Shown here piece after piece: positions 11,337-40,572 of a stretch of 64,000 bases of DNA (position 1 is its first letter; every line of letters begins with the position of its first letter). Below the pieces are notes generated by a model that made no database searches, had not been told where the DNA came from, and was given only the letters and a program-made list of their open reading frames with translations. The stretch is from assembly GCF_944380985.1 (NCBI RefSeq), contig NZ_CALWJJ010000001.1, positions 1 to 64,000 on the forward strand. The letters are read 5' to 3'. This DNA comes from an uncultured Agathobaculum sp. Lineage in GTDB: Bacteria > Bacillota > Clostridia > Oscillospirales > Butyricicoccaceae. The position numbers were made by a program, and so were the translations under genes.

Positions 11337-11350
11337 AAAACAAATGTTCG
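11337..11350. promoter_or_regulatory. Putative LexA (SOS) box of dinB
   Basis: AAAACAAATGTTCG, against the Firmicute LexA consensus CGAAC-N4-GTTCG: the right half is perfect and AAC of the left half is kept. It lies seven bases past the -10, where a repressor would block the start of transcription. Confidence 0.6.
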
Positions 11351-26333: not shown

Positions 26334-28853
26334 TTATTCAAAATGGTCGTTTCTCCGCAGCTTCATTTCCTGCCATTCCTCCCTCGAAATGAGGATCTGA
26401 CGGGGCTTAGAACCTTCAAACGGGCCGATGATGCCGCGCTCCTCGATTTGGTCGATGATGCGCGCAGCGCGCGAGTAGCCCAGCTTTAGACGGCGCTGCA
26501 GCATCGAGGTGGACGCCTGCCGGCAATCCATGATGACGTCGATCGCCTCCTCGATCATCTCGTCCTCTTCCCCGCTGGGGTCAGAAGCGCCGCCGGCTCC
26601 CTTGCTGTCCGCCTGTTCGATCTGGCGCTCAATATGCTCGAGGATCTCTTCACTATATTCGGCAGTGCTCCCCTGCTTGATATGCGCGATGACCGCTTCG
26701 ATCTCCTCTGACGAAATAAAGCAGCCCTGCACACGCGTGGGCTTGCCTTCGCCAAGCGGTCCGTACAACATATCGCCCTTGCCGATCAGCTTTTCCGCAC
26801 CTGTCGTATCGAGAATGATGCGGGATTCGATCTGGCTGGCTACCGCGAAAGCGATGCGCGAGGGGATATTCGCTTTCATGATACCGGTGATGACATCCGC
26901 CGAAGGGCGCTGCGTCGCAACGACCAAATGCATGCCCGCAGCGCGCGCCTTTTGCGCGATACGACAGATAGAGGTTTCGACCTCCTTGGCGGCGACCATC
27001 ATCAAATCGGCAAGCTCGTCGATCACGATAACGATCTGCGGCAGCACCTGATACTGCTCGGGTATGCCGTCCTCCTGCTGCTCGGCCTTGGCCTTTTCAG
27101 CGCGCATCAGATCGTTATAACCGGATAGATTGCGCACCTGATGGTCGGCAAACAGCTTATAGCGTCGCTCCATCTCGCCGACCGCCCAGTTGAGCGCACC
27201 CGAGGCTTTCTTCGGATCGGTCACAACCGGGATGAGCAGATGCGGAATGCCGTTATAGTTGCCCAGCTCGACCATCTTCGGGTCGACCATGATAAGGCGC
27301 ACTTCCTCGGGCGTGGATTTGTACAAAATCGAGATCAGCATCGAGTTGATACACACCGATTTGCCCGAGCCAGTCGTGCCGGCGATCAGCATATGCGGCA
27401 TTTTGGCGATATCGCCAATGACCGGCTTGCCGGTAATGTCCTTGCCCACGGCAAAGGACAGGCGGCTGCGCGCGTTTGTAAACGCAGGCGAAGCAATGCA
27501 CTCGCGGATATAAACCGTATTGATCGTCTTGTTCGGCACCTCGATGCCGACCGCCACCTTATCCGGAATGGGCGCAATGCGCACATTCGCTGCGCCGAGC
27601 GACAGCGCAATATCATCTGAGAGCGCCGTGATACGCGAAAGCTTGATGCCACGCGGGATAGACAGCTCAAACCGCGTGACCGACGGCCCGCGCACAATGC
27701 CGATGATCTGCGCATCGATATTGAATGATTGCAGCGTATCGAGCAGGCACGAGGAATTCTCCTTGAGTTCGGCCTCCACGCCTGTGGTTGAGGCATGCTT
27801 GCCCTGCTTCAGCAGATCGAGCGGCGGATAGTCATAGACCGGCGCAGGCGTTTTCTGGCTCTCGTCCATTTCATCATTGAGCGCGGCCTGCTCGTGCTCG
27901 CTCATCCGCTCGGCCTTTTGCGGCTTGAGCTGCGGCGCGGGATCGGGCGTCTCCTCCTCTTGCTCCGGCTCGTTTTCCATCAGATCGAGGATGCTGACTT
28001 GATCACCCGTCGTCTCCTCCTTAATGGAGCGCAAGTACTCGTCCGGCGCAATCGGCTTGCCGCCATGCTGATGGTGCGGTGCGGCATCCGGATCCGCACC
28101 AGGCTTATCCTCGCCAGGCGGATCGGTGTCGAGCGGAATGTCGATTTGCTGCTTACGGCGGCCGGCACGGCGCTCATCACGCTTTTGCGCGCGCATAGCT
28201 GCGACCTCATGGACATTGGGCAACTTGGGCGGCGCCTCATAATGCGCGCGCTCATCCTCATCCTCGTATTCATAATCAAGCGGACGGAACATCTCCATGA
28301 GCGCCTGCGGTGTAATACGCAACGCCGCAAAAATCGCTCCGATGGTCAGCAGCAGCAGCGCGAGCAGCGCGCCGGCCGAGGACAGCGCCCATTCCAGCAC
28401 GATATACACCCCGCCGGACAGCAGTCCGCCGGATTCTCCAGCCATGCCGGTCGTCAGCAGACCAGCCAGCGTCTGCATGGAAAAATCAAATTGGTTTGCA
28501 CTGGTAAATGCGTGGACAATGCTGCCGATCAACACAGGCAGCAGCGCAATGCATGCCCCGCGCAGACGCACCGGCCCTTTCTCTCTTGCAAACAGCAGCC
28601 CCGCAAGCGCCAATAGCGCAAACGGCAGCAGATAGCTACCCACGCCGATAACCGCGCTGATGCCGCGGTGCACCCAGTGCAGCAGAACCCCGTCGATCGG
28701 CAGGATAGACAGCAGGCATAGCAGCGCGATCACCGCCCAAACAGCGCCCCACGCCGTGCGTGACAGGGTCGGCTCGGCCTTGCGCCGAGACGTCTGCTTA
28801 CTGCGCGGCGCGGTCTTTACCGTTTTTTTACTTGTCGATTTTCTTGCAGCCAA
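26334..28853 (-). CDS. DNA translocase FtsK/SpoIIIE
   Basis: Hexameric ATP-driven DNA pump that clears chromosome from the division or sporulation septum (839 aa). The N-terminal 190 residues hold four or five membrane helices, followed by a charged linker. The motor has Walker [16 protein letters not shown], Walker [13 protein letters not shown] and the arginine-rich [24 protein letters not shown] stretch. The C-terminal winged gamma domain is [29 protein letters not shown], which reads orienting sequences. It could be FtsK or SpoIIIE; only one is in the window. Confidence 0.95.
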
Positions 28854-29001: not shown

Positions 29002-29832
29002 TTATACCATCGTGATTAGGCTGGCGACGACCGCCACCGTGCCGACCAGCGTGCAATAGACCACAAACGGACGGAAGTTGCCGCGATTTGTGATGAACTT
29101 GACCATGCGGATGGCCGCAAGGCCGGATGCCATTGCTACCAGAATGCCCACAACGTAGCAAGCGATCGATGTCTCGCCCATAAGCGAGGGATCGCGGATG
29201 ACATCGGCAAGCTCGAGAATGTTGGCACCCAGCACGACCGGCAGCGACATGATGAACGCAAAGCGTACGGCAAACTCGCGCGAAAAACCGCAAAACAGGC
29301 CGGTGCAAATCGTCGTGCCCGAGCGCGACAGCCCGGGTATTACCGCAAACATCTGACCGATGCCGACAATCAGCGCATCCAGCCAGCTGGCTGTTTCCTC
29401 TGTCTTTCGCTTTTTGGGCGCTTTTTCGGATAGAAACAGCAGCACGGCGGTCAGCAGCAGCATCAGACCGACAAGCAGCGGCGAGGAAAACGCCGCCTCC
29501 AGCCTGCTTTCGATCGGCAGGATGGCAAACATGGGAATGAGCGTGATCAGCAGCATCACAATGAAGCGGCGATACGGATGTCCATTTATCCTAAACCCAT
29601 CCCGGACCCAGCCGAAAAACTCGACAAACAGCTCCTTGATGTCCTTCCAGAATGCAACGACAACGCTGAGCAGCGTGCCAAAATGCAGCAGCACATTAAA
29701 CAGCATATAATTGGTCTCTACGCCGCTGCCAAACAGCGCCTGTACAAGAACAAGATGGCCAGACGAGGATACCGGTAGGAACTCGGTCAAGCCCTGCACC
29801 AGGCCCTGCAAAGCGGCAAACCAGATACTCAT
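29002..29832 (-). CDS. uppP: Undecaprenyl-diphosphatase UppP (BacA)
   Basis: Membrane phosphatase that recycles the undecaprenyl carrier for wall synthesis and gives bacitracin tolerance. The 276-aa protein has the two family motifs, LTEFLPVSSSGHLVL near residue 20 and the pseudo-repeat PGLSRSGTTICTGLFCG, plus about seven helices. The ATG at 29832 follows AGGAGGAG. The longer frame to 29925 is unlikely, because it runs through the leader. It is a single-gene unit with its own terminator. Confidence 0.95.
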   Translation of the reverse strand: MSIWFAALQGLVQGLTEFLPVSSSGHLVLVQALFGSGVETNYMLFNVLLHFGTLLSVVVAFWKDIKELFVEFFGWVRDGFRINGHPYRRFIVMLLITLIPMFAILPIESRLEAAFSSPLLVGLMLLLTAVLLFLSEKAPKKRKTEETASWLDALIVGIGQMFAVIPGLSRSGTTICTGLFCGFSREFAVRFAFIMSLPVVLGANILELADVIRDPSLMGETSIACYVVGILVAMASGLAAIRMVKFITNRGNFRPFVVYCTLVGTVAVVASLITMV

Positions 29833-29942: not shown

Positions 29943-30764
29943 CTAACCGTTTTCTTCCAATATCTGATCGATCGCTGCCGCAACGCCGTCCTCGGCGTTT
30001 GTCAGCGTCTCACGCGCGCAAATTGCCTTAACTGCGTCCGACGCATTGCCCATCGCGACCGGCAGCGCGACTGCGCGCAGCATCTCCAGATCGTTCTCAC
30101 TGTCTCCGATGGCGGCTGCGTGCGCAAGATCGGTGCCGAGCGCACGGCACAGCATACCGAGCGCTGCGCCCTTATTCGCCTCCGGCGCGACCACCTCAAT
30201 GTTATCTGCCGCCGAACTCATCACCCGCACGCCCGGGATCTGCTCGACCTGCTTGCGAATGAGACCAAGCATGACCGCATCACCTGTGCGCGCAAAAATC
30301 TTGTCAACCGCCAGGCGCCTTTCTGCGATGTATTCGGCCACCGAGGGCACAACCTGCTTGACCGCAAGATAGCCCTCATTGGACTTGTACTTACCAAATT
30401 CCATATCATCATAAGGCGTGATCAGCAGCTGCTCGCCCACATAAATCATCGCCGTCACACCAATGCGCTCGACTGTGGCAGCCACGCGCACCGCAGGTTC
30501 CCACGGCATAGACAGCCGTATGCTGCACCGCCCACTCGCTACGCTCGACAGCGATGCGCCGCCCGAAGTGACCATTAAATCCTCTACACCGAGGGCGAGC
30601 GCAAAGTCGCGCGCCTCACCGCAGATGCGCCCTGTCGAAACGACCACATGCAGCCCCGCCTGCCGCGCCCGCCGTACGGCCTCCCGCGTCGCGTCCGACA
30701 CCGTGTTGTCCGGCGTGAGCGCTGTGCCGTCCAGATCGAGCGCGATCAGCTCTATCTTCCGCAT
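29943..30764 (-). CDS. Cof-type HAD-family phosphatase
   Basis: Haloacid-dehalogenase hydrolase of the Cof/type IIB class (273 aa), probably acting on sugar phosphates or a flavin/PLP phosphate. Motif I is ALDLDGTALTPDN, with TGR in motif II (VVSTGRICGEAR), a cap domain around 85-185, and motif IV AAIGDSENDLEMLRAV. NKGAALGML is the Cof Lys motif. The ATG at 30764 follows GGGGGAG. It reads away from the phage-type cassette and its start lies only about 75 bases from that cassette's SOS-like box. Confidence 0.9.
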   Translation of the reverse strand: MRKIELIALDLDGTALTPDNTVSDATREAVRRARQAGLHVVVSTGRICGEARDFALALGVEDLMVTSGGASLSSVASGRCSIRLSMPWEPAVRVAATVERIGVTAMIYVGEQLLITPYDDMEFGKYKSNEGYLAVKQVVPSVAEYIAERRLAVDKIFARTGDAVMLGLIRKQVEQIPGVRVMSSAADNIEVVAPEANKGAALGMLCRALGTDLAHAAAIGDSENDLEMLRAVALPVAMGNASDAVKAICARETLTNAEDGVAAAIDQILEENG

Positions 30765-30839
30765 GTTCTCTCCCCCTGCTGTGAAGTGCATTTTATTCAG
30801 AATACCGCAATAGACAATAAATTGCAAGTATATAAAAAT

Positions 30840-30853
30840 CGAACATTTGTTCT
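30840..30853. promoter_or_regulatory. Putative LexA (SOS) box at the head of the capsid cassette
   Basis: CGAACATTTGTTCT, against the Firmicute consensus CGAAC-N4-GTTCG; only the last base differs. The inner GAACA-TT-TGTTC is a perfect palindrome. It abuts the cassette's -35 and shares its final T with it, so a bound repressor would block polymerase. Confidence 0.7.
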
Positions 30854-30881
30854 TGACTTTTTACCCCGACGCGTCTATTCT
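30853..30881 (+). promoter_or_regulatory. Promoter of the phage-head cassette
   Basis: TTGACT (30853-30858), 17-base spacer, TATTCT (30876-30881), about 55 bases ahead of the first cassette gene. Confidence 0.75.
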
Positions 30882-30935
30882 ATCCATCACGGGAAGAGTA
30901 AGCAAAATCCATCCCCAAAAGGAGGCGAGGCCATT

Positions 30936-31148
30936 GTGCGCAAAAAAAATCATCCGGAGGAACTGATCCGGATGCTTTACGAAATTGCGGACGACGCGGA
31001 AGCGCCGGCAAACAGCCGTCTGACCGCAATCCGGGAAATTCTCGATCGGACGGTCGGCAAGGGCGCGATGCTGGACGGCGAACAAAAAGCGCCCGAGCCG
31101 GTCGAGATCGTATTTCGAATCGTCGACGCACCGTCGAATACGGCATAA
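30936..31148 (+). CDS. Small terminase-like / DNA-packaging accessory protein
   Basis: Seventy-residue first gene of the cassette. It starts at a GTG preceded by AGGAGG and contains EELIRMLYEIADDAEAPANSRLTAIREILDRTVGKG, a helical pattern (APAxxRxxAxxxxLDRxxGK) common in small proteins just upstream of phage large terminases. It is much shorter than a full small terminase and no separate DNA-binding domain is visible. Its TAA stop overlaps an ATA that seems to be the start of the large terminase. The role is inferred from position and pattern. Confidence 0.6.
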   Translation: MRKKNHPEELIRMLYEIADDAEAPANSRLTAIREILDRTVGKGAMLDGEQKAPEPVEIVFRIVDAPSNTA

Positions 31149-32443
31149 CCCCGCGGCAGGCGGCGTTTATCCGGTCGGATGCGTTTGAAACGCTGTTCGG
31201 CGGCGCGGCGGGCGGCGGCAAAAGCCACGGCCAGCTGCTCGATGCGCTGCGGTTCGCCGTGGTCTATCCCGGCTCACGGCAGCTTATGCTGCGGCGCACC
31301 ATGCCCGAACTTGAGCGCTCGCTCGTGCCTGCATCGCTGCGGCTTTATCCGCAGTCGATCGCATCCTACAAAGTCAGCGAACATTTGTGGCAGTTTGCAA
31401 ACGGTTCAACACTCGAGTTTGGCTTCTGCGATGCTGAGAGCGACGTAACCCGCTACCAGTCGGCCGAGTATGACGTAATCCGATTTGACGAGCTTACCCA
31501 CTTCACCGAAAGTCAGTTTACCTATCTGATTTCTCGCGTGCGCGGCACAAACGGATTTCCCAAGCAGGTCAAATCGACTACCAACCCAGGCGGCGTCGGC
31601 CATCAATGGGTCAAAGCGCGGTATATCGATCCCGCACCGCCTGACACACTGACCGAGTATGACGGCGGCTCGCGGCTGTTTCTGCCTGCAAGGCTTATGG
31701 ACAACCCCTTTTTGCAGCGTGCGGACAGCGCATACGAAAAGCGGCTGCGGCTTCTCTCTCCGCACGACCGTAAGGCGCTGCTTGACGGAGTATGGGATCT
31801 GGACGAGGGCCGGTATTTCAGCGAGTTTTCGGCCGCGCTGCACATCACGCCGCCGCATCCTATCCCTCGAACGTGGCGGCGGTATCTCACAGTCGACTAC
31901 GGTCTCGACATGCTCGCGGCGCTCTGGATCGCGCAAAGCCCGGATGGGTACAGCGTGGTATACCGGGAGCTGTACCAGCCCGGACTGATCATCTCGGAGG
32001 CGGCCGCAGCGATCCAGGCCTGTGAGCCGGCGGGCGAGCGCATCGACTGCCGGCTGGCGCCGCCCGATCTATGGAACCGGCGGCAGGAGACAGGAAAGAG
32101 TGCGGTGGAATTATTTGCGGACTGTGGGCTGGACTTCGATAAAAGCAGCAACGAGCGCGTCGCCGGGTGGCTGGCGCTACACGAGCTGCTTGCGCCGCGC
32201 CGCGACACGCACGGCAAGGCGCGGCCTAAACTCACAATTTTCGACACCTGCCGCAATCTGATTCGTACCCTGCCCGCATTGCAGCATGACAAGCGCAATC
32301 CATCTGACGTGGCAAACACGCCACACGAGCTGACGCATGCGCCCGACGCGCTGCGCGGCTATGCGGCGACTGTGTATGAGCCGCCCGTACCGGTGCAGCC
32401 GACGGCGTATGACTGCGAGGTAGGAGAATTCCTGCAGTATTGA
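31145..32443 (+). CDS. Phage terminase large subunit
   Basis: DNA-packaging ATPase/nuclease (about 432 aa). Walker A GGAAGGGKS lies at about residue 19, Walker B is VIRFDELTHF, coupling motif STTNPGG, and the RNase H-like nuclease carries acidic residues in LTVDYGLD, LAPPDLWNR and THAPDALRGYA, so all catalytic parts are present. The frame has no ATG, GTG or TTG before Walker A; the first GTG is at 31259, after it. The best start is ATA at 31145 (reading M-TPRQAAFIRS), overlapping the upstream stop as ATAA. An ATT at 31112 is an alternative. Confidence 0.85.
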   Translation: MTPRQAAFIRSDAFETLFGGAAGGGKSHGQLLDALRFAVVYPGSRQLMLRRTMPELERSLVPASLRLYPQSIASYKVSEHLWQFANGSTLEFGFCDAESDVTRYQSAEYDVIRFDELTHFTESQFTYLISRVRGTNGFPKQVKSTTNPGGVGHQWVKARYIDPAPPDTLTEYDGGSRLFLPARLMDNPFLQRADSAYEKRLRLLSPHDRKALLDGVWDLDEGRYFSEFSAALHITPPHPIPRTWRRYLTVDYGLDMLAALWIAQSPDGYSVVYRELYQPGLIISEAAAAIQACEPAGERIDCRLAPPDLWNRRQETGKSAVELFADCGLDFDKSSNERVAGWLALHELLAPRRDTHGKARPKLTIFDTCRNLIRTLPALQHDKRNPSDVANTPHELTHAPDALRGYAATVYEPPVPVQPTAYDCEVGEFLQY

Positions 32444-32523
32444 GAGAGGGAGAATGGCAGTTTTTGATACAGGTGACCGTGCACTGCAATTCTCCGTTTA
32501 ACATTTCAATTCTCCATTATTTA
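32444..32523. repeat. Short dispersed repeat copy A
   Basis: Intergenic DNA with GGGAGAATGGCAG on the left and inverted CAATTCTCCG...CAATTCTCCATTATT on the right. It shares the GAGAATGG/TGGAGAAT word with copies near 47.8, 56.7 and 59.1 kb. This copy lies inside the phage-type cassette. Confidence 0.45.
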
Positions 32524-32537
32524 AAAAGGAGGAAGCT

Positions 32538-32729
32538 ATGGAAATCTTATGCTATTGCATCGGCGCGGCGCTGCTGGTGCTGACCGGCGCGGTCTTGTCC
32601 GGTGGACTGCGGCTTCCAGCGCGGCAGCCCAAAGGCGCGGCGCCGGAAGAGACGCCCGATGACGCGCTCAGCCGCGATCTTGCCGCGTTGATGGCTTACG
32701 GACGAGAGGAGGATGACCATGCGATTTGA
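32538..32729 (+). CDS. Small single-span membrane protein in the capsid cassette
   Basis: Sixty-three residues with a strong AGGAGG before the ATG. One N-terminal membrane helix (about residues 4-26, CYCIGAALLVLTGAVLSGG) is followed by a short acidic soluble tail (DDALSRDLAALMAYGREEDD). It overlaps the portal gene by eleven bases, indicating coupled translation. It is in the place where some phages keep a holin or head accessory gene, but a single span with an acidic tail is not diagnostic. Function unknown. Confidence 0.6.
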   Translation: MEILCYCIGAALLVLTGAVLSGGLRLPARQPKGAAPEETPDDALSRDLAALMAYGREEDDHAI

Positions 32730-34284
32730 TCCCTCACCGGCAGCCATCTGGCAAAAATACGAGCGTGACCGCGACTACAAACGTTGGATCGGGCTGTATG
32801 ACCGCGTGCGACGCAACGAGGCATTCTATCTCGGCCGGCAGTGGGAAGGGCTTCGCGTACATTCGCTCGATCCGCTGATCTTCAACGTGCTGCGGCGCTG
32901 TGTCAACCTGTTCGTATCCATGCTGGTATCGGACGATGTGGCCGTACGCGCCCAGCCGTTTGAAATGGACGAGCAAGGCCGTCACACAGCCCGTGTGCTC
33001 GAACGCGCTTTTGCAGCGGCAATCGAACGATCGGGTGTCAAAGCGCTCGGCCGGCCGCTGCTCAAAAACGCGTGCGTCGACGGCGACGCCTGTTTTTACA
33101 TCCACTTTGACCCCGCGCTCGAAACCGGCCAGGCCGTCAAGGGAGATATTGCGGTTGACCTCATCGACTCTACCAACATCTGCTTTGGCAACCCGGCCTG
33201 CGACGAGGTGCAGCGCCAGCCCTATCTCATCATTGCCATGCGGCGCGATGTGGATGAGGTGCGGCAGGAGGCCAAGGCGAACGGCATGGGCGAGAGCGAA
33301 ATTGAAGCGATCCGGCCGGACGACACAAGCGACTATCTGCGCTACCGTCTAAATGGCGAAACTGACCGCGTGACTGTGCTGCTGCACATGCGGAAAACCG
33401 ATAAGGGCGTTGCTTTCTGCAAGACAACGCGCACCGCGACCATCATGCGCGAAAAAGAGCTGCCCTACCGCTACTATCCGGTCACCCACCTGTGCTGGAA
33501 CCGGGTGCGCGGCTCGTGCCACGGCGAAAGCCCGCTGACCGAGGCTATACCCAATCAAATTGCGATCAACAAGCTGTATTCGATGTATGTGCAATGCATC
33601 AAGCAGGTGGCCTTTCCCAAGATTATCTACGATATGACCCGCTTCCCAAACGGCTGGTCAAACGATGTGGGCAAGGCAGTCGGCATGCGCGGTAATCCAA
33701 ACGAGGCTATCGCAACCGCGTTTCGCGCGCCCGACATCTCCTCTCAGGTGCTCGGTCTGTTAAAACAAATGATGACCGACACCGCAGAGCTGATGGGCGC
33801 GAGCGAGGCCGCGCTCGGCACGGTCAAGCCGGATAATACCTCGGCGATCGTTGCAGTGCAGAACGCGACCGCCGCCCCGCTCGAGCTGACCAAAATGGAA
33901 TTTTACCGCTTTACCGAGGACTGGGCGCGCATCTTCCTTGACTTGATGGGAGCGCACTATGGCACGCGCACAGTCATCGTCTCGGATGGAACAGGCGGCG
34001 CGCCGGAGCGGCAGTCGTTTGACTTTTCCACGCTCGCCGGGCAGGACATGCGTTTGCAGGTGGACGTTGGCGCGGCAAGCTACTGGTCCGAGACCATGCA
34101 GACCATGACAAACGACCATTTGCTCGAAAGCGGCGTTATCACCGATCCGCTCATCTATCTGGAAAACGTGCCCGATTATCAGGTGCGCGGCAAACACGAC
34201 CTGCTGCATGCGCTCCGCATGCAGCGCCAGCAGCAAAAGGAGGAAACCGCAAATGCAAACCAACCGCAAGCAGAACAACCCTAA
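32719..34284 (+). CDS. Phage portal protein (P22-like)
   Basis: Dodecameric gateway through which DNA enters and leaves the head (521 aa). The N-terminus has YDRVRRNEAFYLGRQWEGL and FNVLRRCVNLFVSMLVSDDV, and the centre HLCWNRVRGSCHGESPLTEAIPNQIAINKLYS, a pattern of podovirus/P22-type portals. MTDTAELMGASEAALGTVKPDNTSA is the crown-stem region, and a Gln-rich tail ends the protein. I chose the ATG at 32719, which has AGAGGAGG six bases upstream; the ATG at 32713 is too close. It follows TerL and precedes the scaffold, in normal phage order. Confidence 0.85.
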   Translation: MRFDPSPAAIWQKYERDRDYKRWIGLYDRVRRNEAFYLGRQWEGLRVHSLDPLIFNVLRRCVNLFVSMLVSDDVAVRAQPFEMDEQGRHTARVLERAFAAAIERSGVKALGRPLLKNACVDGDACFYIHFDPALETGQAVKGDIAVDLIDSTNICFGNPACDEVQRQPYLIIAMRRDVDEVRQEAKANGMGESEIEAIRPDDTSDYLRYRLNGETDRVTVLLHMRKTDKGVAFCKTTRTATIMREKELPYRYYPVTHLCWNRVRGSCHGESPLTEAIPNQIAINKLYSMYVQCIKQVAFPKIIYDMTRFPNGWSNDVGKAVGMRGNPNEAIATAFRAPDISSQVLGLLKQMMTDTAELMGASEAALGTVKPDNTSAIVAVQNATAAPLELTKMEFYRFTEDWARIFLDLMGAHYGTRTVIVSDGTGGAPERQSFDFSTLAGQDMRLQVDVGAASYWSETMQTMTNDHLLESGVITDPLIYLENVPDYQVRGKHDLLHALRMQRQQQKEETANANQPQAEQP

Positions 34285-34795
34285 GCAGCAGACCATGCCT
34301 GCGCAGCCGCAGGCACAGACGCAGCCCCCTGCCCCGTCCGAGGCAAACCCGTTTGCGTCAGCCGGCGCGGATATGCAGCCGCAGGCGCAGCCCGGCACGC
34401 AGCAAACCTTCCCCGTTCCGGTGGACGGACAGACGGTCGAGCTGACGATCGACGAACTGATCCAGGCGGCGAGCCTCGGCCTGTCCAAGCAGAACGCCTA
34501 TGTGCGCCGCAACCGGGCCGCCGCCGGCATGACAAACGGACAGATCTACGCAGCGTTCGTTGAGGAATACCCGGACGTCCGCCCCGAGGACATCCCACAG
34601 CAGGTATGGCAGTGGGCGCAGCAGGAAGGCTCGCTCGTCTCCGCCTATCGCAAGTGGGAGATACTGACGCTCAAGGACGAACTGGAGGCGATGGAGATGA
34701 ATCAGAAAAACCGCCGTGCAGCCGTCGGCCCAGCACAGTCGGACGGCGAGCCTGCGGGCGTCGACCCAGTGACCTTGGCTTTGCTAGGCCGATAA
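34253..34795 (+). CDS. Scaffold-like protein of the capsid cassette
   Basis: Protein of 180 aa between portal and major capsid genes, where phages encode the scaffold. It has a low-complexity Gln/Pro/Ala N-terminus (residues 1-50), then VDGQTVELTIDELIQAASLGLSKQNAYVRRN and a helical, charged C-terminal half (KWEILTLKDELEAMEMNQKNRR). Scaffold genes diverge fast, so position and composition are the main evidence. The ATG at 34253 has AGGAGG upstream and lies within the end of the portal gene. Confidence 0.6.
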   Translation: MQTNRKQNNPKQQTMPAQPQAQTQPPAPSEANPFASAGADMQPQAQPGTQQTFPVPVDGQTVELTIDELIQAASLGLSKQNAYVRRNRAAAGMTNGQIYAAFVEEYPDVRPEDIPQQVWQWAQQEGSLVSAYRKWEILTLKDELEAMEMNQKNRRAAVGPAQSDGEPAGVDPVTLALLGR

Positions 34796-34965
34796 CGCCC
34801 TAACAAAGCATGATCCGGGGTATCCCCATACCCTCGGTATCTGCGCCGCCACGGCGCAGGGTCGTAGCGAAATTCCGGCGCGTATGCCGTCGGCATTTCC
34901 AATCCTATGCCGCTTCGCTCCTAGCGGGCGGCAGCTACTCACTACTTTGACAGGAGGTTACTATT
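34796..34965 (+). other. Palindrome-rich spacer before the major capsid gene
   Basis: No ORF. It contains several short hairpins: GGGGTAT/ATACCC, TGCGCCG/CGGCGCA, ATGCCG/CGGCAT and a CGC..GCG hairpin. It ends in an AGGAGG ribosome site for the capsid gene. It could be a processing or stability element that raises capsid mRNA. Confidence 0.4.
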
Positions 34966-36000
34966 ATGGCTATCAATCTTGCTACCAAATATTCTGACCA
35001 AATCGCTGAGGTATTCACGCGCGCGTCTTTCATCAAGGGTAAAACCGCGGAGACTTTCGACCTGACCGGCGTCAAAACGCTTAAGGTGTACACGCCTATC
35101 ACGGTCGAAGAGGTCGATTACGACCGTGACGGTGGCCTTGCCCGCTACGGCGATGTGACCGAGATGCAGGACGTTGTGCAGGAGCTGACTATGACGCAGG
35201 ACAAGGCGTTCACTCTCACGATTGACAAGGGCAACAACCTCGATCAGAACCTTGTCAAAAACGCCGCCGATATGCTTCGCTTGCAACTAAACGAAAAGTC
35301 CACCCCCGCAGCGGACCGATATGCATTCCGCCGCTTTGTCACCATGGCGGGTACGATCGCAGAAAGCGCGGCCAAGCCGACTAAGTCCGACATCATTAGC
35401 AAAATCGCGGACGCCTCTCAGGCGCTTGACGATGCGCTCGTGCCGGATGACAACCGCTACCTCTACCTGACAAGCGAAATGTACAAGCTTGTATGCACCT
35501 CGGATGAATTTGCAGGCGTTGACGTGCTCGCACGCCAATCGATCGCTAAGGGCGTGTGCGGCGAGGTATTCGGTATGAACGTGGTGCGCGTGCCTAAGTC
35601 CTATCTGCCGGATGACGTGTACTTCCTCGTCGCGCACAAGGACGCGGTGCTCATGCCTTACAAGATCGCCGATGCCAAGGTGCACGAGGACCCGGTCGGC
35701 GTATCCGGCGCACTAATCGAAGGCCGCCATTATTACGACGCCTATGTGCTCGGCGCCAAGTGCGGCGGCGTATATGCGCTCGTTGCAACGGGCAAGGTAT
35801 CTGCCGCACCGTCAATCGCCTCGAAAAAGATCACCGGCAACGGCGCGATCCGCTACACTCTCGACGGTTCTGATCCCCGCTATTCGGATTCCGCCAAGGA
35901 CTATGTGGCAAACACCGAGCTGACCGCCGAGACAGGCTGCAAGATCCGCGCATACGCGGTTGAGACCGGCAAGTATCCGTCTGCCGTTGCAGAAGGCTGA
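34966..36000 (+). CDS. Major capsid protein with C-terminal chitobiase/Ig-like domain
   Basis: Shell protein of 344 aa. The first 275 residues look like a phage coat protein of the P22/HK97-fold group: LATKYSDQIAEVFTRASFIKG, TVEEVDYDRDGGLARYGDVTEM, QDKAFTLTIDKGNNLDQN and LYLTSEMYKLVCTSDEF. After GGVYALVATGKV the last 65 residues change to IRYTLDGSDPRYSDSAKDY...CKIRAYAVETGK, the pattern of CHB_HEX_C-type beta-sandwiches, probably displayed on the shell surface. AGGAGG precedes the ATG. A hairpin after the stop may protect this abundant mRNA. Confidence 0.82.
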   Translation: MAINLATKYSDQIAEVFTRASFIKGKTAETFDLTGVKTLKVYTPITVEEVDYDRDGGLARYGDVTEMQDVVQELTMTQDKAFTLTIDKGNNLDQNLVKNAADMLRLQLNEKSTPAADRYAFRRFVTMAGTIAESAAKPTKSDIISKIADASQALDDALVPDDNRYLYLTSEMYKLVCTSDEFAGVDVLARQSIAKGVCGEVFGMNVVRVPKSYLPDDVYFLVAHKDAVLMPYKIADAKVHEDPVGVSGALIEGRHYYDAYVLGAKCGGVYALVATGKVSAAPSIASKKITGNGAIRYTLDGSDPRYSDSAKDYVANTELTAETGCKIRAYAVETGKYPSAVAEG

Positions 36001-36001
36001 C

Positions 36002-36034
36002 GGGCCAAAGCCGCCTTTTCAGGCGGCTTTGCCC
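36002..36034 (+). terminator. Hairpin after the capsid gene (weak terminator or stabiliser)
   Basis: GGGC-CAAAGCCGCC pairs with GGCGGCTTT-GCCC; no T-run follows, so read-through to the connector gene is likely. Confidence 0.5.
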
Positions 36035-36071
36035 GCCATAACCCACATACCGATTGCAAAGGAGGAATTCT

Positions 36072-36440
36072 ATGACCGGAACCGCATGCTATCACGCCGC
36101 GCTGAACCTTCTTTCGGAGACCCCGAACAGCGGCGTTTACTACGAGCAGTTCGCACTGGGGGCGATCAACCAGCTGCTCGCCAACAGCTTGCGTGAGATC
36201 AATGCCAAGCGCACGCTCGGCGGCGATACGCCCTATACTGCCCCGCCGTATATGGAAACGCTCAGCGATGAGATCCCTGCCGACGACTATCTCGTGCGCG
36301 AGTGCTTTCCTTATGGGCTGGCGGCCCTGCTTGTGGCGGATGACGATAAGGCCAAGTTCAACTGGGCGGCCGCTGAATACACCGACCGGCTGCTGCGCCA
36401 CTGCCCGGCGCAGCTGACCGGCATCCAGGAGATGGTCTGA
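36072..36440 (+). CDS. Head completion / connector-like protein
   Basis: Protein of 122 aa following the capsid gene, the usual place for the adaptor that seals the portal. It is mostly alpha-helical (YYEQFALGAINQLLANSLREINAKR, FNWAAAEYTDRLLRHC). The ATG at 36072 follows AGGAGG, and its stop overlaps the next start (ATGGTCTGATG), so translation is coupled. No family motif is clear; the assignment rests on position and size. Confidence 0.55.
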   Translation: MTGTACYHAALNLLSETPNSGVYYEQFALGAINQLLANSLREINAKRTLGGDTPYTAPPYMETLSDEIPADDYLVRECFPYGLAALLVADDDKAKFNWAAAEYTDRLLRHCPAQLTGIQEMV

Positions 36441-38260
36441 TGCGCGCCTATCAATTTCCACAGATCGAAACCGAGCATACAACCGTGATCAGCCGCTTTG
36501 GCGGCATAGACTTTCGAACCCATCCAACCAAGGTCTCGCTTTCCCGTTCGCCCGATATGCAGAATATGATCTGCGACCAGAGCGATTTCCTCGTAAAGCG
36601 CACCGGCTGGAAGACGCAGCATACCTATTCCGCGCCGATCTACGGGCTGTTTCCGCTGCCGGATGGCACGGGATTTGCTGTCCATGCGGGCAGCAAACTG
36701 TACTGCCGCCTGAGTACAGGCGCACAGACCGAGCTGTGCGTTGATATGAACCAGGCATTTTCCCAGGCCTTTGTGATGAACGGCGTGCTCTATGTGCTTG
36801 ACGGGCAAATCTTCCGTGCCGTGCGGCGCAATGCGGAAAATACCGCGTGGGAGGCCGTTAAGGTGCAGGACATTGCTTATGTGCCGACTACTACAATCTC
36901 GGCCGTGCCGACTGGCGGCGGCACGACCTACGAGAACGTAAACCTGATCACACCAAAGCGCATCAACACGTTTATCGGAGACGGATCGGCCACACAGTTC
37001 CAGCTGGATGCAAAGGATCTAGACGATGCGACGGTCACCGCTGAGGTCGACGGCGCGGCGGTCACAGTTTCCTCGGTCGACCGTACAAACGGAATCGTGA
37101 CGCTTGCCTCAGCGCCCGCTAACGGCAACGGCCTTGCCAATGTGTCGATCTGCTTTTCCAAAACCGTGGACGGGTATGCAGACAAGATCAACAAATGCCG
37201 TTTTGCCGGGCTATACGGCGGCAAAAACGACACGCGCGTCTTTGTTGCTGGCAACCCGGAGGAGCCTAATTGCGACTGGCAGAGCGGACTGTATGACCCA
37301 ACCTACTTCCCCGACCTCGGCTACACCCGCATGGGCACCGACGCCTCCGCAATCATCGGCTACCTCAAGCAGTATGACAGCCAGCTCGTCATCAAGTCGG
37401 GCGGCGCACAGGAGGCAACCAGCTATCTGCGCTCCTACATGATGGCCGACGACGGCACGGCGCTCTATCCCCTCAAACAGGGTACGCAGGGCGAGGGCGC
37501 TGTCGCCCCGCGCAGCTTTGCAACACTCGGAGACCTGCCGCTGTTTCTGTCCGCGCGTGGAGTGCAGGGCATATTTGGCACCGCGGTCGCCGAGCAGCGC
37601 ACCATCCGTTCGGTATCCGACGCGATTGTGCCCCGGCTCGCCGCTGAGCAAGGGTTAGAAAACGCCTGCGCGCTTGTGTTCGAGGGCAAATATTATCTGG
37701 CCGTTGACAGCCATATCTACATTGCCGACAGCGCGCTTTCCGATCAAAACGGCGACCCCTCATGGTTTTACTGGAGCGATGTGCCCGCGCAGTGCCTAGC
37801 CACGCTGGATGGACGGCTGTGGTTCGGCACGGCGGACGGCAAGCTGTGCCGCTTTGCAGACGCCGCCGAAGATCACGCATACAGCGATGACGGCGCCGCG
37901 ATCGACGCGTACTGGCGCACGCCGACTCTGCCGCTTGCGGACTGGGGGCGCGTCAAGACCGTGCGTGATGTGGTGCCGACACTTATGCCATACTCGCGCT
38001 CGGGCGCGACCGTCCAGTATGAAAGCGAGAACGGACAGACGCTTGCGCTCTCGCGCAATATGGATCTGTTCTCTTTCAAAACGCTGGATTTCTCGCGCTT
38101 TTCATTCCGCTGTATCCCGGGTGCGATCAGCTACCGCACACGCTGGCGACAGCATCGTATGCCGCTGCTCGCGGTGCGCATCGGCAACAACAGAGTGGAT
38201 GAGCCCTTCGGTCTGCTGGCAATCACCATCCGCTGGACGCAGGGCCAGGCTGTCAATTAA
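36440..38260 (+). CDS. Large phage structural protein, possibly beta-propeller plug (P22 gp10-like)
   Basis: Protein of 606 aa rich in short beta segments. The N-terminus (FGGIDFRTHPTKVSLSRSPDMQNM..., then VKRTGWKTQ) has the look of phage tail-hub or DNA-stabilising propeller proteins that cap the portal. Repeated strands such as GLFPLPDGTGFAVHAGSKLYCRL and ARGVQGIFGTAVAEQRTIRSV fit blade repeats, and the C-terminus ends in a beta-rich segment (LLAITIRWTQGQAVN). No adhesin or enzyme motif is seen. Portal plug/tail hub is inferred from fold look and gene order. Confidence 0.55.
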   Translation: MRAYQFPQIETEHTTVISRFGGIDFRTHPTKVSLSRSPDMQNMICDQSDFLVKRTGWKTQHTYSAPIYGLFPLPDGTGFAVHAGSKLYCRLSTGAQTELCVDMNQAFSQAFVMNGVLYVLDGQIFRAVRRNAENTAWEAVKVQDIAYVPTTTISAVPTGGGTTYENVNLITPKRINTFIGDGSATQFQLDAKDLDDATVTAEVDGAAVTVSSVDRTNGIVTLASAPANGNGLANVSICFSKTVDGYADKINKCRFAGLYGGKNDTRVFVAGNPEEPNCDWQSGLYDPTYFPDLGYTRMGTDASAIIGYLKQYDSQLVIKSGGAQEATSYLRSYMMADDGTALYPLKQGTQGEGAVAPRSFATLGDLPLFLSARGVQGIFGTAVAEQRTIRSVSDAIVPRLAAEQGLENACALVFEGKYYLAVDSHIYIADSALSDQNGDPSWFYWSDVPAQCLATLDGRLWFGTADGKLCRFADAAEDHAYSDDGAAIDAYWRTPTLPLADWGRVKTVRDVVPTLMPYSRSGATVQYESENGQTLALSRNMDLFSFKTLDFSRFSFRCIPGAISYRTRWRQHRMPLLAVRIGNNRVDEPFGLLAITIRWTQGQAVN

Positions 38261-38277
38261 GAAAGGAGGGATAGGCT

Positions 38278-39228
38278 TTGGCAAAAAATTATAAAGAAGA
38301 TTTTGATTATTCCTATGCAATCTCCCAAACGCAGGATGCTTCCAAACGTCAGCAGCTGCTTGCCGAGCGGCAAAACAAGATCGACGCAGAGGGCCTTGCG
38401 GGCAAGGTACCCTCAAATGAGGCTGTGGCGACGTGGAACGGTGAATATCGTCCGTATTCAGTCTCCTCCGGCAGCAGAAACGACTCCTCCGGCGGCTCCA
38501 ATGCGCTCATGCAGCTGTATGAGGCTGCTGAGCAGGCGCGTCTCCAACGATTTGAGGCGGCACGCGAACATATCCGCCAACAGCTGGAAAGCAATCTGTC
38601 CTCAATCGAGAGCGACTACACGGCCGGCATGACGCAGACCGATATCAACGCGCGCCAGTCCGCCGTGTATAACGAGGAAAAGCTTGCCGCGCTCGGACTG
38701 AACATGGGTGCGCGGAACGCCTCTGCCACCTCGGGCGCTGCGGAGTCCAGCCGCGTCGCGCTCGACAACCAATACCGCAGCGACTTAAACGCACTTGGCC
38801 AGGCTCGCTTGTCCGCCCGCGCCGCCGCGCACAGTGCGGCCGCCGATCAGCAGGCCGCGCTGGAGCAGCAGTATTACAGCGCCGCGGAAAACGCCGCGCT
38901 CCAGCAGGCACAAATGCAGCTGACCCAGCTCAATGCCGACCGCGATTACAGCCTCTCACTGGCTGGGCTGACCGGCTTTATAAACGGCACGCCTACCTTG
39001 TCCTGGCATAACTATCAGCTAAATGCAAACCAAACCGCCGCGCAGATCGCCAGCGACAGCCAAGCGCAGGCTTACGAGCAGGCGCTCAACCGCTGGAAGA
39101 CCAGTGGCTATGTGCAGGCGGGAGACGCCGCCATCCTTGGTGTGCCCGCCGGCACGCCGACCGCGGATGTCAGCTATCAAAACGCCAATCTCGCACTTCA
39201 GCAATGGAAAGCCGGCTACTGGTACTGA
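38278..39228 (+). CDS. Coiled-coil terminal protein of the capsid cassette (ejection-protein-like)
   Basis: Last cassette gene (316 aa), starting at a TTG preceded by AGGAGGG. It has a Ser/Gly linker at about 60-80 and a long Ala/Gln-rich helical region at about 80-225 (RFEAAREHIRQQLESNLSSIESDY, AAADQQAALEQQYYSAAENAALQQAQMQL), then a compact C-terminus with repeated W/Y residues (ALQQWKAGYWY). Long Ala/Gln helices resemble podovirus internal or DNA-ejection proteins, but also tape-like proteins; I cannot decide. A strong terminator follows. Confidence 0.5.
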   Translation: MAKNYKEDFDYSYAISQTQDASKRQQLLAERQNKIDAEGLAGKVPSNEAVATWNGEYRPYSVSSGSRNDSSGGSNALMQLYEAAEQARLQRFEAAREHIRQQLESNLSSIESDYTAGMTQTDINARQSAVYNEEKLAALGLNMGARNASATSGAAESSRVALDNQYRSDLNALGQARLSARAAAHSAAADQQAALEQQYYSAAENAALQQAQMQLTQLNADRDYSLSLAGLTGFINGTPTLSWHNYQLNANQTAAQIASDSQAQAYEQALNRWKTSGYVQAGDAAILGVPAGTPTADVSYQNANLALQQWKAGYWY

Positions 39229-39243
39229 CTCGGCCGGCACAAA

Positions 39244-39273
39244 AAAGCCGCTCACCATCAGGTGAGCGGCTTT
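39244..39273. terminator. Bidirectional terminator between the capsid cassette and metY
   Basis: AAAGCCGCTCACC pairs with GGTGAGCGGCTTT, 4-base loop, with T-runs both ways. Confidence 0.9.
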
Positions 39274-39303: not shown

Positions 39304-40572
39304 TTAGTCTAGCTGCGCCAGCGCCTGATCGAGATCGTCGATAATATCCTCTACATTTTCAAGGCCGACCGACACCCGCACAAGACCGGGCTGAATGCCT
39401 GCGGCAACGAGCTGCTCGTCTGTCAGCTGGCGGTGGGTTTCGGAGGCCGGGTGCAGCACGCAGGTGCGTATATCCGCGACATGCACCTCGTTGCAGGCGA
39501 GCTTGAGGCTGTCCATAAACCGCATAGCGGGCGCGCGGCCGCCCTTGATGTCAATCGACATAACGCCCGAGCACCCAAGCGGCAGGTATTTCTGAGCGCG
39601 CGCATAATATTCATTATCCGGCAGGCCAGGATAGCGCACAGACGCGACCTTGTCCGACTTTTGCAAATGCTTTGCCACGGTAAACGCATTTTCGCAGTAC
39701 TGCTTCATACGCACAGGCAGCGTTTCAAGGCCCATATTGAGCAGAAACGCCGAATGCGCCGCCGGATAACAGCCAAAATCACGCATTAGTTGCATGCGCG
39801 CCTTGATGATATAGGCAAGGTTGCCGAAATCCCGGGTGTATATTACGCCGTGATAGGTCTCGTCCGGCTCAGTAAAATCCGCAAACTTGCCGGAGGCCGA
39901 CCAGTCAAACTTGCCGCTGTCCACGATCACGCCGCCGCCCTGCACGGCGTGGCCGTCCATATACTTGGTAGTCGAGTGGGTGACGATGTCCGCGCCCCAC
40001 TCGAACGGGCGGCAAAGGATCGGGGTGGCAAAGGTATTGTCCACGATGAGCGGCACGCCGTTGCGATGCGCGATGCCCGCCCACTTTTCAATATCGAACA
40101 CAGTCAGCGCGGGATTTGCAAGCGTTTCGCCAAAAACCGCCTTGGTGTTTGGCTTGAACAGCTTTTGAATCTCCTCCTCATCCGCCTCGGCATCCGCCCA
40201 GATGCACTCGATCCCCAGCCGCCTGAGCGTTACGCCAAACAGGTTGATCGTTCCCCCATAGATTGTGGAGACCGCGATAAAGCTATCCCCTGCCGAGCAC
40301 AGGTTGAGAATGGCAAGCAGGTTTGCCGCCTGGCCGGAGGAGGTCAGCATCGCGCCCGCACCGCCCTCGAGCGCGGCGATCTTCTTCTCGACCGCGTCGC
40401 AGGTGGGGTTGGCAAAGCGGGAATACATAAACTCGGTCGGCATGTCAAACAGTGCGGCGACATGCTCTGTCGAGTCAAACCGGTAGGTGGTGGACTGCAC
40501 GATCGGCAGCGCACCTGGCCCGCCGTTTTCCGGCGCATAGCCTGCGTGTAGGCAGCTGGTTTCGATTTTCAT
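39304..40572 (-). CDS. metY: O-acetylhomoserine sulfhydrylase (MetY type)
   Basis: PLP enzyme that makes homocysteine from O-acetylhomoserine and sulfide (422 aa, MetY length; cystathionine synthases are shorter). Signatures are THAG-like SCLHAGYAPENGGPGALPIVQSTTYRF, SRFANPTCDAVEKKIAALEGG, the PLP-lysine motif HSTTKYMDGHAVQGGGV, and SVGLENVEDIIDDLDQAL at the end. AGGAG lies upstream of the ATG. No SAM riboswitch is seen in the 190 bases upstream. A closely related gamma-lyase activity cannot be excluded. Confidence 0.9.
   Translation of the reverse strand: MKIETSCLHAGYAPENGGPGALPIVQSTTYRFDSTEHVAALFDMPTEFMYSRFANPTCDAVEKKIAALEGGAGAMLTSSGQAANLLAILNLCSAGDSFIAVSTIYGGTINLFGVTLRRLGIECIWADAEADEEEIQKLFKPNTKAVFGETLANPALTVFDIEKWAGIAHRNGVPLIVDNTFATPILCRPFEWGADIVTHSTTKYMDGHAVQGGGVIVDSGKFDWSASGKFADFTEPDETYHGVIYTRDFGNLAYIIKARMQLMRDFGCYPAAHSAFLLNMGLETLPVRMKQYCENAFTVAKHLQKSDKVASVRYPGLPDNEYYARAQKYLPLGCSGVMSIDIKGGRAPAMRFMDSLKLACNEVHVADIRTCVLHPASETHRQLTDEQLVAAGIQPGLVRVSVGLENVEDIIDDLDQALAQLD

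Follow-up and report, generated by a model that had tools for sequence, protein, structure and literature searches.

To our knowledge, very few gene transfer agents (GTAs) have been described, most of them in Alphaproteobacteria, where the RcGTA-type agents are vertically inherited clusters of phage structural and packaging genes under selection. The locus described here resembles them by functional analogy, but it is podovirus-like, whereas RcGTA has a full siphovirus-like tail. Among gut bacteria, FpGTA has been described in Faecalibacterium: its locus I codes for a TerS without a DNA-binding domain, TerL, portal, scaffold, and capsid protein, its locus II codes for a fibre, holin, and endolysin, and its 40 nm particles, for which proteomics have been published, contain chromosomal DNA fragments of about 9 kb (Borodovich et al. 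2026, PMC12946183). That paper names neither Agathobaculum nor Butyricicoccus, and we found no literature linking either of them to GTAs.

The locus studied here comes from an uncultured Agathobaculum sp. (Butyricicoccaceae), whose genome comprises 1.84 Mb in 20 contigs, and lies in a window of 64,000 nucleotides, i.e., positions 1 to 64,000 of contig NZ_CALWJJ010000001.1. The best reading of this cassette, in the absence of data on particles, packaging, or transfer, is a GTA-like packaging system that was domesticated independently and is probably induced by DNA damage. The ORF list and family searches gave nine ORFs in one direction and tightly spaced at 30936-39228, in agreement with the first-pass annotation of the sequence, and both the promoter with an SOS-like box (30840-30881) and the terminator (39244-39273), which were said to frame them, were located. 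The features are as follows:

29943-30767, minus strand: HAD hydrolase, left flank; then uppP (29002-29832) and ftsK (26334-28853), a conserved neighbourhood
30840-30853, plus strand: LexA (SOS) box CGAACATTTGTTCT, overlapping the -35 hexamer; present in 21 of 21 aligned Agathobaculum loci
30853-30881, plus strand: sigma-70-type promoter TTGACT-17-TATTCT; -10 box TATTCT kept in relatives
30936-31148, plus strand: terS, small terminase-like protein of 70 aa without helix-turn-helix; GTG start; weak match to phrog_10899
31139-32443, plus strand: terL, large terminase (ATPase and nuclease); non-canonical start, frame open upstream to 30902
32538-32729, plus strand: small membrane protein of 63 aa, one membrane helix judged likely by eye; in all relatives
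32713-34284, plus strand: portal protein, P22 type (family searches)
34253-34795, plus strand: scaffold-like protein, located between portal and major capsid protein, as in phages
34966-36000, plus strand: major capsid protein (MCP), HK97-like, T7-type, with C-terminal Fn3_assoc / CHB_HEX domain
36054-36440, plus strand: connector / head-tail adaptor-like protein; position kept in phages, fold not established
36440-38260, plus strand: tail hub / nozzle protein, P22 gp10 / T7 gp12-like, beta-propeller
38278-39228, plus strand: coiled-coil protein, possibly internal/ejection protein; no significant structural match
39244-39273, plus strand: intrinsic terminator with 13-bp hairpin
39304-40572, minus strand: metY-like Cys/Met PLP enzyme, right flank; only here and in one relative (G004)

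The scaffold start is most likely at 34253, which corrects an earlier call. A short match to the cassette on contig 7 turned out to be a terminator-like hairpin.

In the family searches, TerL matched phrog_979 (E 3e-47) as well as PF03237 and PF04466, and motif inspection bore out the earlier claim of complete ATPase and nuclease motifs (Walker A GGAAGGGKS, Walker B FDEL, and the conserved acidic nuclease positions). The portal was assigned to phrog_156 (E 1e-26) and P22_portal PF16510 (E 4e-14), and the MCP to phrog_422 (E 1e-37), with P-SCSP1u gp19 and, weakly, T7 gp10A as solved relatives. An Fn3_assoc / CHB_HEX domain was located at the C-terminus of the MCP (35840-36000). The protein initially described only as large, beta-rich, and structural is present and was further identified as a tail hub by its match to phrog_3287 (E 2e-26); a hub profile derived from phages and cassettes matched T7-type tail tubular protein B (E 7e-6) and beta-propellers, and a structure model of low confidence (pLDDT 45) gave P22 gp10 and its relatives as best matches. 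No solved relative of the connector was found by profile search, and the structure model of the coiled-coil protein gave nothing significant. The small terminase-like gene indeed showed a family match to phrog_10899, but with an E value of only 1e-3 this support is weak. Because some presumed phages also contain a short TerS without helix-turn-helix, this trait alone is not diagnostic.

The start of TerL is peculiar, with no ATG, GTG, or TTG near the conserved N-terminus in the window genome. Most Agathobaculum species also lack these codons in the corresponding region (31100-31160). The codon at the 4-base overlap with the terS stop is ATA, GTA, GTG, or CTG across Agathobaculum, and in all 21 species the TerL frame is open across the whole of terS, compared to 32% of comparable windows in the other cassette genes. 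TerL may thus be produced either from an unusual start or by a frameshift; because we saw no conserved slippery site for a programmed -1 TerS-TerL frameshift, the latter was left undecided.

Full phage contigs of up to 35-42 kb in IMG/VR are related to the cassette, and two Agathobaculum prophages (L053 and L054) are of the same kind. The late genes of these temperate podoviruses and prophages of Clostridia are homologous to those of the cassette and share their order, but L053 and L054 additionally contain a resolvase, a replication initiator, and a collagen-like fibre, the latter placed between the hub and coil genes, and their TerS has a helix-turn-helix-like N-terminus missing in that of the cassette. 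Between hub and coil, phage loci have about 3.7 kb (median) and the cassettes at most 0.3 kb, although 6 of 44 phage loci likewise lack this interval. Judged from this gene content, the cassette has lost the tail fibre and the other hub-to-coil genes carried by related prophages. Consistent with the first-pass annotation, we detected no integrase, replication, or fibre genes in or beside the cassette, nor any repeat that would pass convincingly as an att site. Fibreless head genes in a genus harbouring related phages might also represent a head-only satellite (capsid-forming, PICI-like) that depends on a helper phage for its tails and persists by spreading; we regard this as highly improbable, considering that the cassette lacks an integrase, a replication module, and an att site, keeps its own tail hub, and combines a fixed site with a host-like phylogeny, as detailed below.

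No lysis or receptor-binding genes were found linked to the cassette. A tblastn search with prophage fibre, SLH/subtilase-type, and holin-like queries, covering 1.43 of the 1.84 Mb (78%), did not reveal a lysis or fibre locus, matching only S-layer-domain regions, transporter-like genes, and what is left of a prophage on contig 11. Searches for collagen and GH25 families did not identify a lysis or receptor-binding gene of a second locus either; the collagen-like ORF that turned up on contig 7 adjoins a glycosyltransferase gene and, like the GH25 gene on contig 14, looks like a host gene. The remnant prophage (L224, 26-40 kb on contig 11) contains tail, replication, and recombinase genes and has its own LexA-like boxes, CGAACGTATGTTCG and CGAACATACGTTCT. 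ComEC was found in all nine genomes tested, a further point in favour of the GTA-like reading.

Searching the related genomes, as had been suggested, we found that related species have this minimal cassette as well, at the site it occupies in the window genome. Of 25 Agathobaculum species genomes, 23 contain TerL orthologues with 81-92% identity, while G011 and G024 have no close TerL copy and lack the cassette. The cultured A. desmolans ATCC 43058, A. butyriciproducens DSM 100391, and A. massiliense carry it. In relatives with sufficiently long contigs, the full ordered cassette adjoins ftsK-uppP-HAD, one of these three genes being absent beside it in a few cases; the contigs of some other relatives stop inside the cassette, where the flank is not readable. 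The right flank is variable. The HAD and metY-like neighbours annotated initially were confirmed, together with DUF896 and CCA-enzyme genes on the metY-like side, but metY is the right neighbour only in the window genome and G004, and many other genomes have glycolytic genes there. No relative was found to carry a full prophage at this site, which would have refuted a domesticated cassette.

Frameshifts or relaxed selection in relatives would equally have refuted it, and neither was found. About 180 gene copies contained no internal stops or frameshifts, barring small differences at the portal C-terminus. Median dN/dS values (Nei-Gojobori, own script) were 0.09 for MCP, 0.11 for portal, 0.13 for TerL, and 0.15 for the hub, followed by connector (0.19), coil (0.20), and scaffold (0.21), whereas TerS (0.33) and the membrane protein (0.38) were the least conserved. 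The host reference genes ftsK, uppP, and HAD yielded 0.145-0.148. MCP, portal, and TerL are therefore under strong purifying selection, with a constraint as strong as that of the neighbouring housekeeping genes. A host tree (ftsK and uppP) and a tree of seven cassette genes were concordant (Mantel r 0.88, 0 of 2000 permutations), and every host split with at least 95% support was compatible with the full cassette tree. The host tree lacks three well-supported splits of the cassette tree, which leaves room for some recombination. These data leave hardly any room for a decaying prophage remnant whose genes are intact only through recent insertion: prophages of the same family do occur in the genus, but the cassette occupies one site in all contig-complete relatives, shows no frameshifts and dN/dS values near 0.1, and belongs to a deep monophyletic clade. 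The initial argument against simple decay, based on near-intact motifs alone, is thus supported by comparative data, and we rejected both the decaying prophage and the satellite on the grounds of synteny, selection, and missing mobility genes.

The promoter of the cassette contains a perfect LexA-type dyad, GAACATTTGTTC, at 30841-30852, overlapping the -35 box. This box and the -10 box are kept in 21 of 21 aligned Agathobaculum loci, but the first half-site is CAAAC, and thus degenerate, in 8 of the 21, which counts against the explanation proposed below. In the window genome, the same motif precedes lexA and genes for a DinB-type polymerase, a UmuC-like polymerase, rarA, and a uvrD/pcrA-type helicase, all named by eye from their sequences. 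The box of the DinB-type polymerase gene, which belongs to the SOS regulon of this genome, lies within the window as well (11337-11350). Control of the Agathobaculum cassette by LexA is well supported, because the box is kept in 21 loci and shares its motif with lexA and repair genes, although this is inferred from motifs without LexA-binding or induction data. Outside the genus, GAAC-N4-GTTC with different spacers lies close to the promoter or start in Intestinibacillus (g12) and in one g9 genome, and we estimate its chance expectation at about 0.02 per locus; no LexA box was found near the cassettes of g10 and g4 or the Faecalibacterium loci.

Portal orthologues with 60-72% identity occur in further Butyricicoccaceae, namely in 11 of 12 g10 genomes, both Intestinibacillus genomes, and one g9 genome. 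In g10, both flanks are common across the genus, and this fixed site differs from that in Agathobaculum. The cassettes of Agathobaculum, g10, g12, and g9 form one clade in the portal and TerL trees (support 1.0 and 0.998) with no complete phage inside. Its only member from a viral database is a 7.5-kb contig placed inside g10 (L236, IMGVR_UViG_2882308280_000003), most likely a g10 host cassette miscalled as a virus in IMG/VR. Because selection has been maintained across at least four genera, the frozen head module of a podovirus, initially offered as an alternative, is excluded. Related head cassettes were also observed beside host genes in g4 (L134, L133, L046), where a 1078-aa collagen-like fibre is retained, and in g9 (L135, L045); these are possibly further domestications.

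For comparison with FpGTA, we identified the Faecalibacterium locus by a 16S probe and its layout rather than by accession. The published Faecalibacterium probe matched none of the candidate genera, and a wider search yielded G475. This genome and six congeners contain one or two TerL loci each, the main one having a cassette-like layout in the two genomes read closely. Its order equals that of the cassette (short TerS, TerL, portal, scaffold-like, capsid protein, connector, hub, coiled-coil), it likewise lacks integrase and lysis genes and occurs genus-wide, and its TerL (38-40% identical), portal, and hub are homologous to those of the cassette. In contrast, the capsid proteins belong to different families (phrog_1357/Phage_capsid_4 versus phrog_422; none of the matches listed to the cassette MCP came from g110), and the Faecalibacterium locus has a Prp-protease scaffold and no LexA box. 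Moreover, FpGTA has a locus II, while none was found for the Agathobaculum cassette. In the TerL and portal trees, the Faecalibacterium locus forms a separate clade grouped with loci of other families, so that the two do not form the single clade expected for a shared domesticated ancestor. From these sequence comparisons, we read FpGTA and the cassette as the outcome of separate domestications of one type of phage, although a single early domestication with a later swap of the capsid gene cannot be ruled out with certainty. Faecalibacterium-type TerL/portal/hub loci were also observed in three genera of the same family (g3, g5, and g6) as well as in further families of this order (L061, L062, L154, L157 and L060, L155, L156), and it is undetermined whether they are GTAs or phages.

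The cassette agrees with a GTA in being a set of phage-derived head and packaging genes that is chromosomally fixed and vertically inherited, in keeping its structural and packaging genes under purifying selection, and in lacking genes for integration, excision, and replication. The earlier suggestion of a domesticated, GTA-like capsid system is therefore supported by the same-site cassette, its intact genes, purifying selection, and host-like phylogeny, with packaging and transfer being inferred. We propose that the cassette goes back to a temperate podovirus whose core genes for head, packaging, and tail hub were domesticated once, in an ancestor of four Butyricicoccaceae genera (Agathobaculum, Intestinibacillus, and two others), and have been inherited vertically since. 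DNA damage would relieve LexA repression, and the operon would then produce small procapsids, into which TerL and the short TerS, lacking a recognisable DNA-binding domain, would pack host DNA non-specifically by a headful mechanism. Portal, connector, and hub would close the particle, and fibres and lysis functions would come from elsewhere in the genome, as from locus II of FpGTA. The particles would carry host DNA from cell to cell, perhaps as a repair template. We consider this combination of podovirus-core domestication, vertical inheritance, and GTA-type particles probable as a full explanation, its packaging, particle, and transfer steps being inferred. Points against it are the lack of an identified lysis or fibre locus in the part of the genome searched, the degenerate half-site in 8 of 21 loci and the missing box in g10, the weaker conservation of TerS and the membrane protein, the two Agathobaculum genomes without the cassette, and the possible recombination. 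Strong selection and SOS control would equally fit a domesticated particle with another job, e.g., DNA-filled or empty capsids released for defence, killing, or as decoys, or altruistic export of damaged DNA, in each case without productive transfer, and the unidentified receptor-binding/lysis locus speaks for this option. It nevertheless appears unlikely to us, since the packaging ATPase/nuclease and the portal rank with the best-conserved genes, which indicates that DNA packaging itself is selected, and since Faecalibacterium particles of the same layout hold chromosomal DNA (PMC12946183).

Within the preferred GTA reading, we only tentatively suggest, at somewhat less than even chances, that the cassette represents a second, independently domesticated podovirus-type GTA of gut Clostridia, which is under LexA/SOS control and shares chromosomal DNA across Butyricicoccaceae upon damage. 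If true, one phage type would have been domesticated repeatedly in butyrate-producing gut bacteria, and the same reduced gene set would have been reached from different capsid lineages, with the LexA box at the promoter providing a direct, testable link from DNA damage to DNA sharing.
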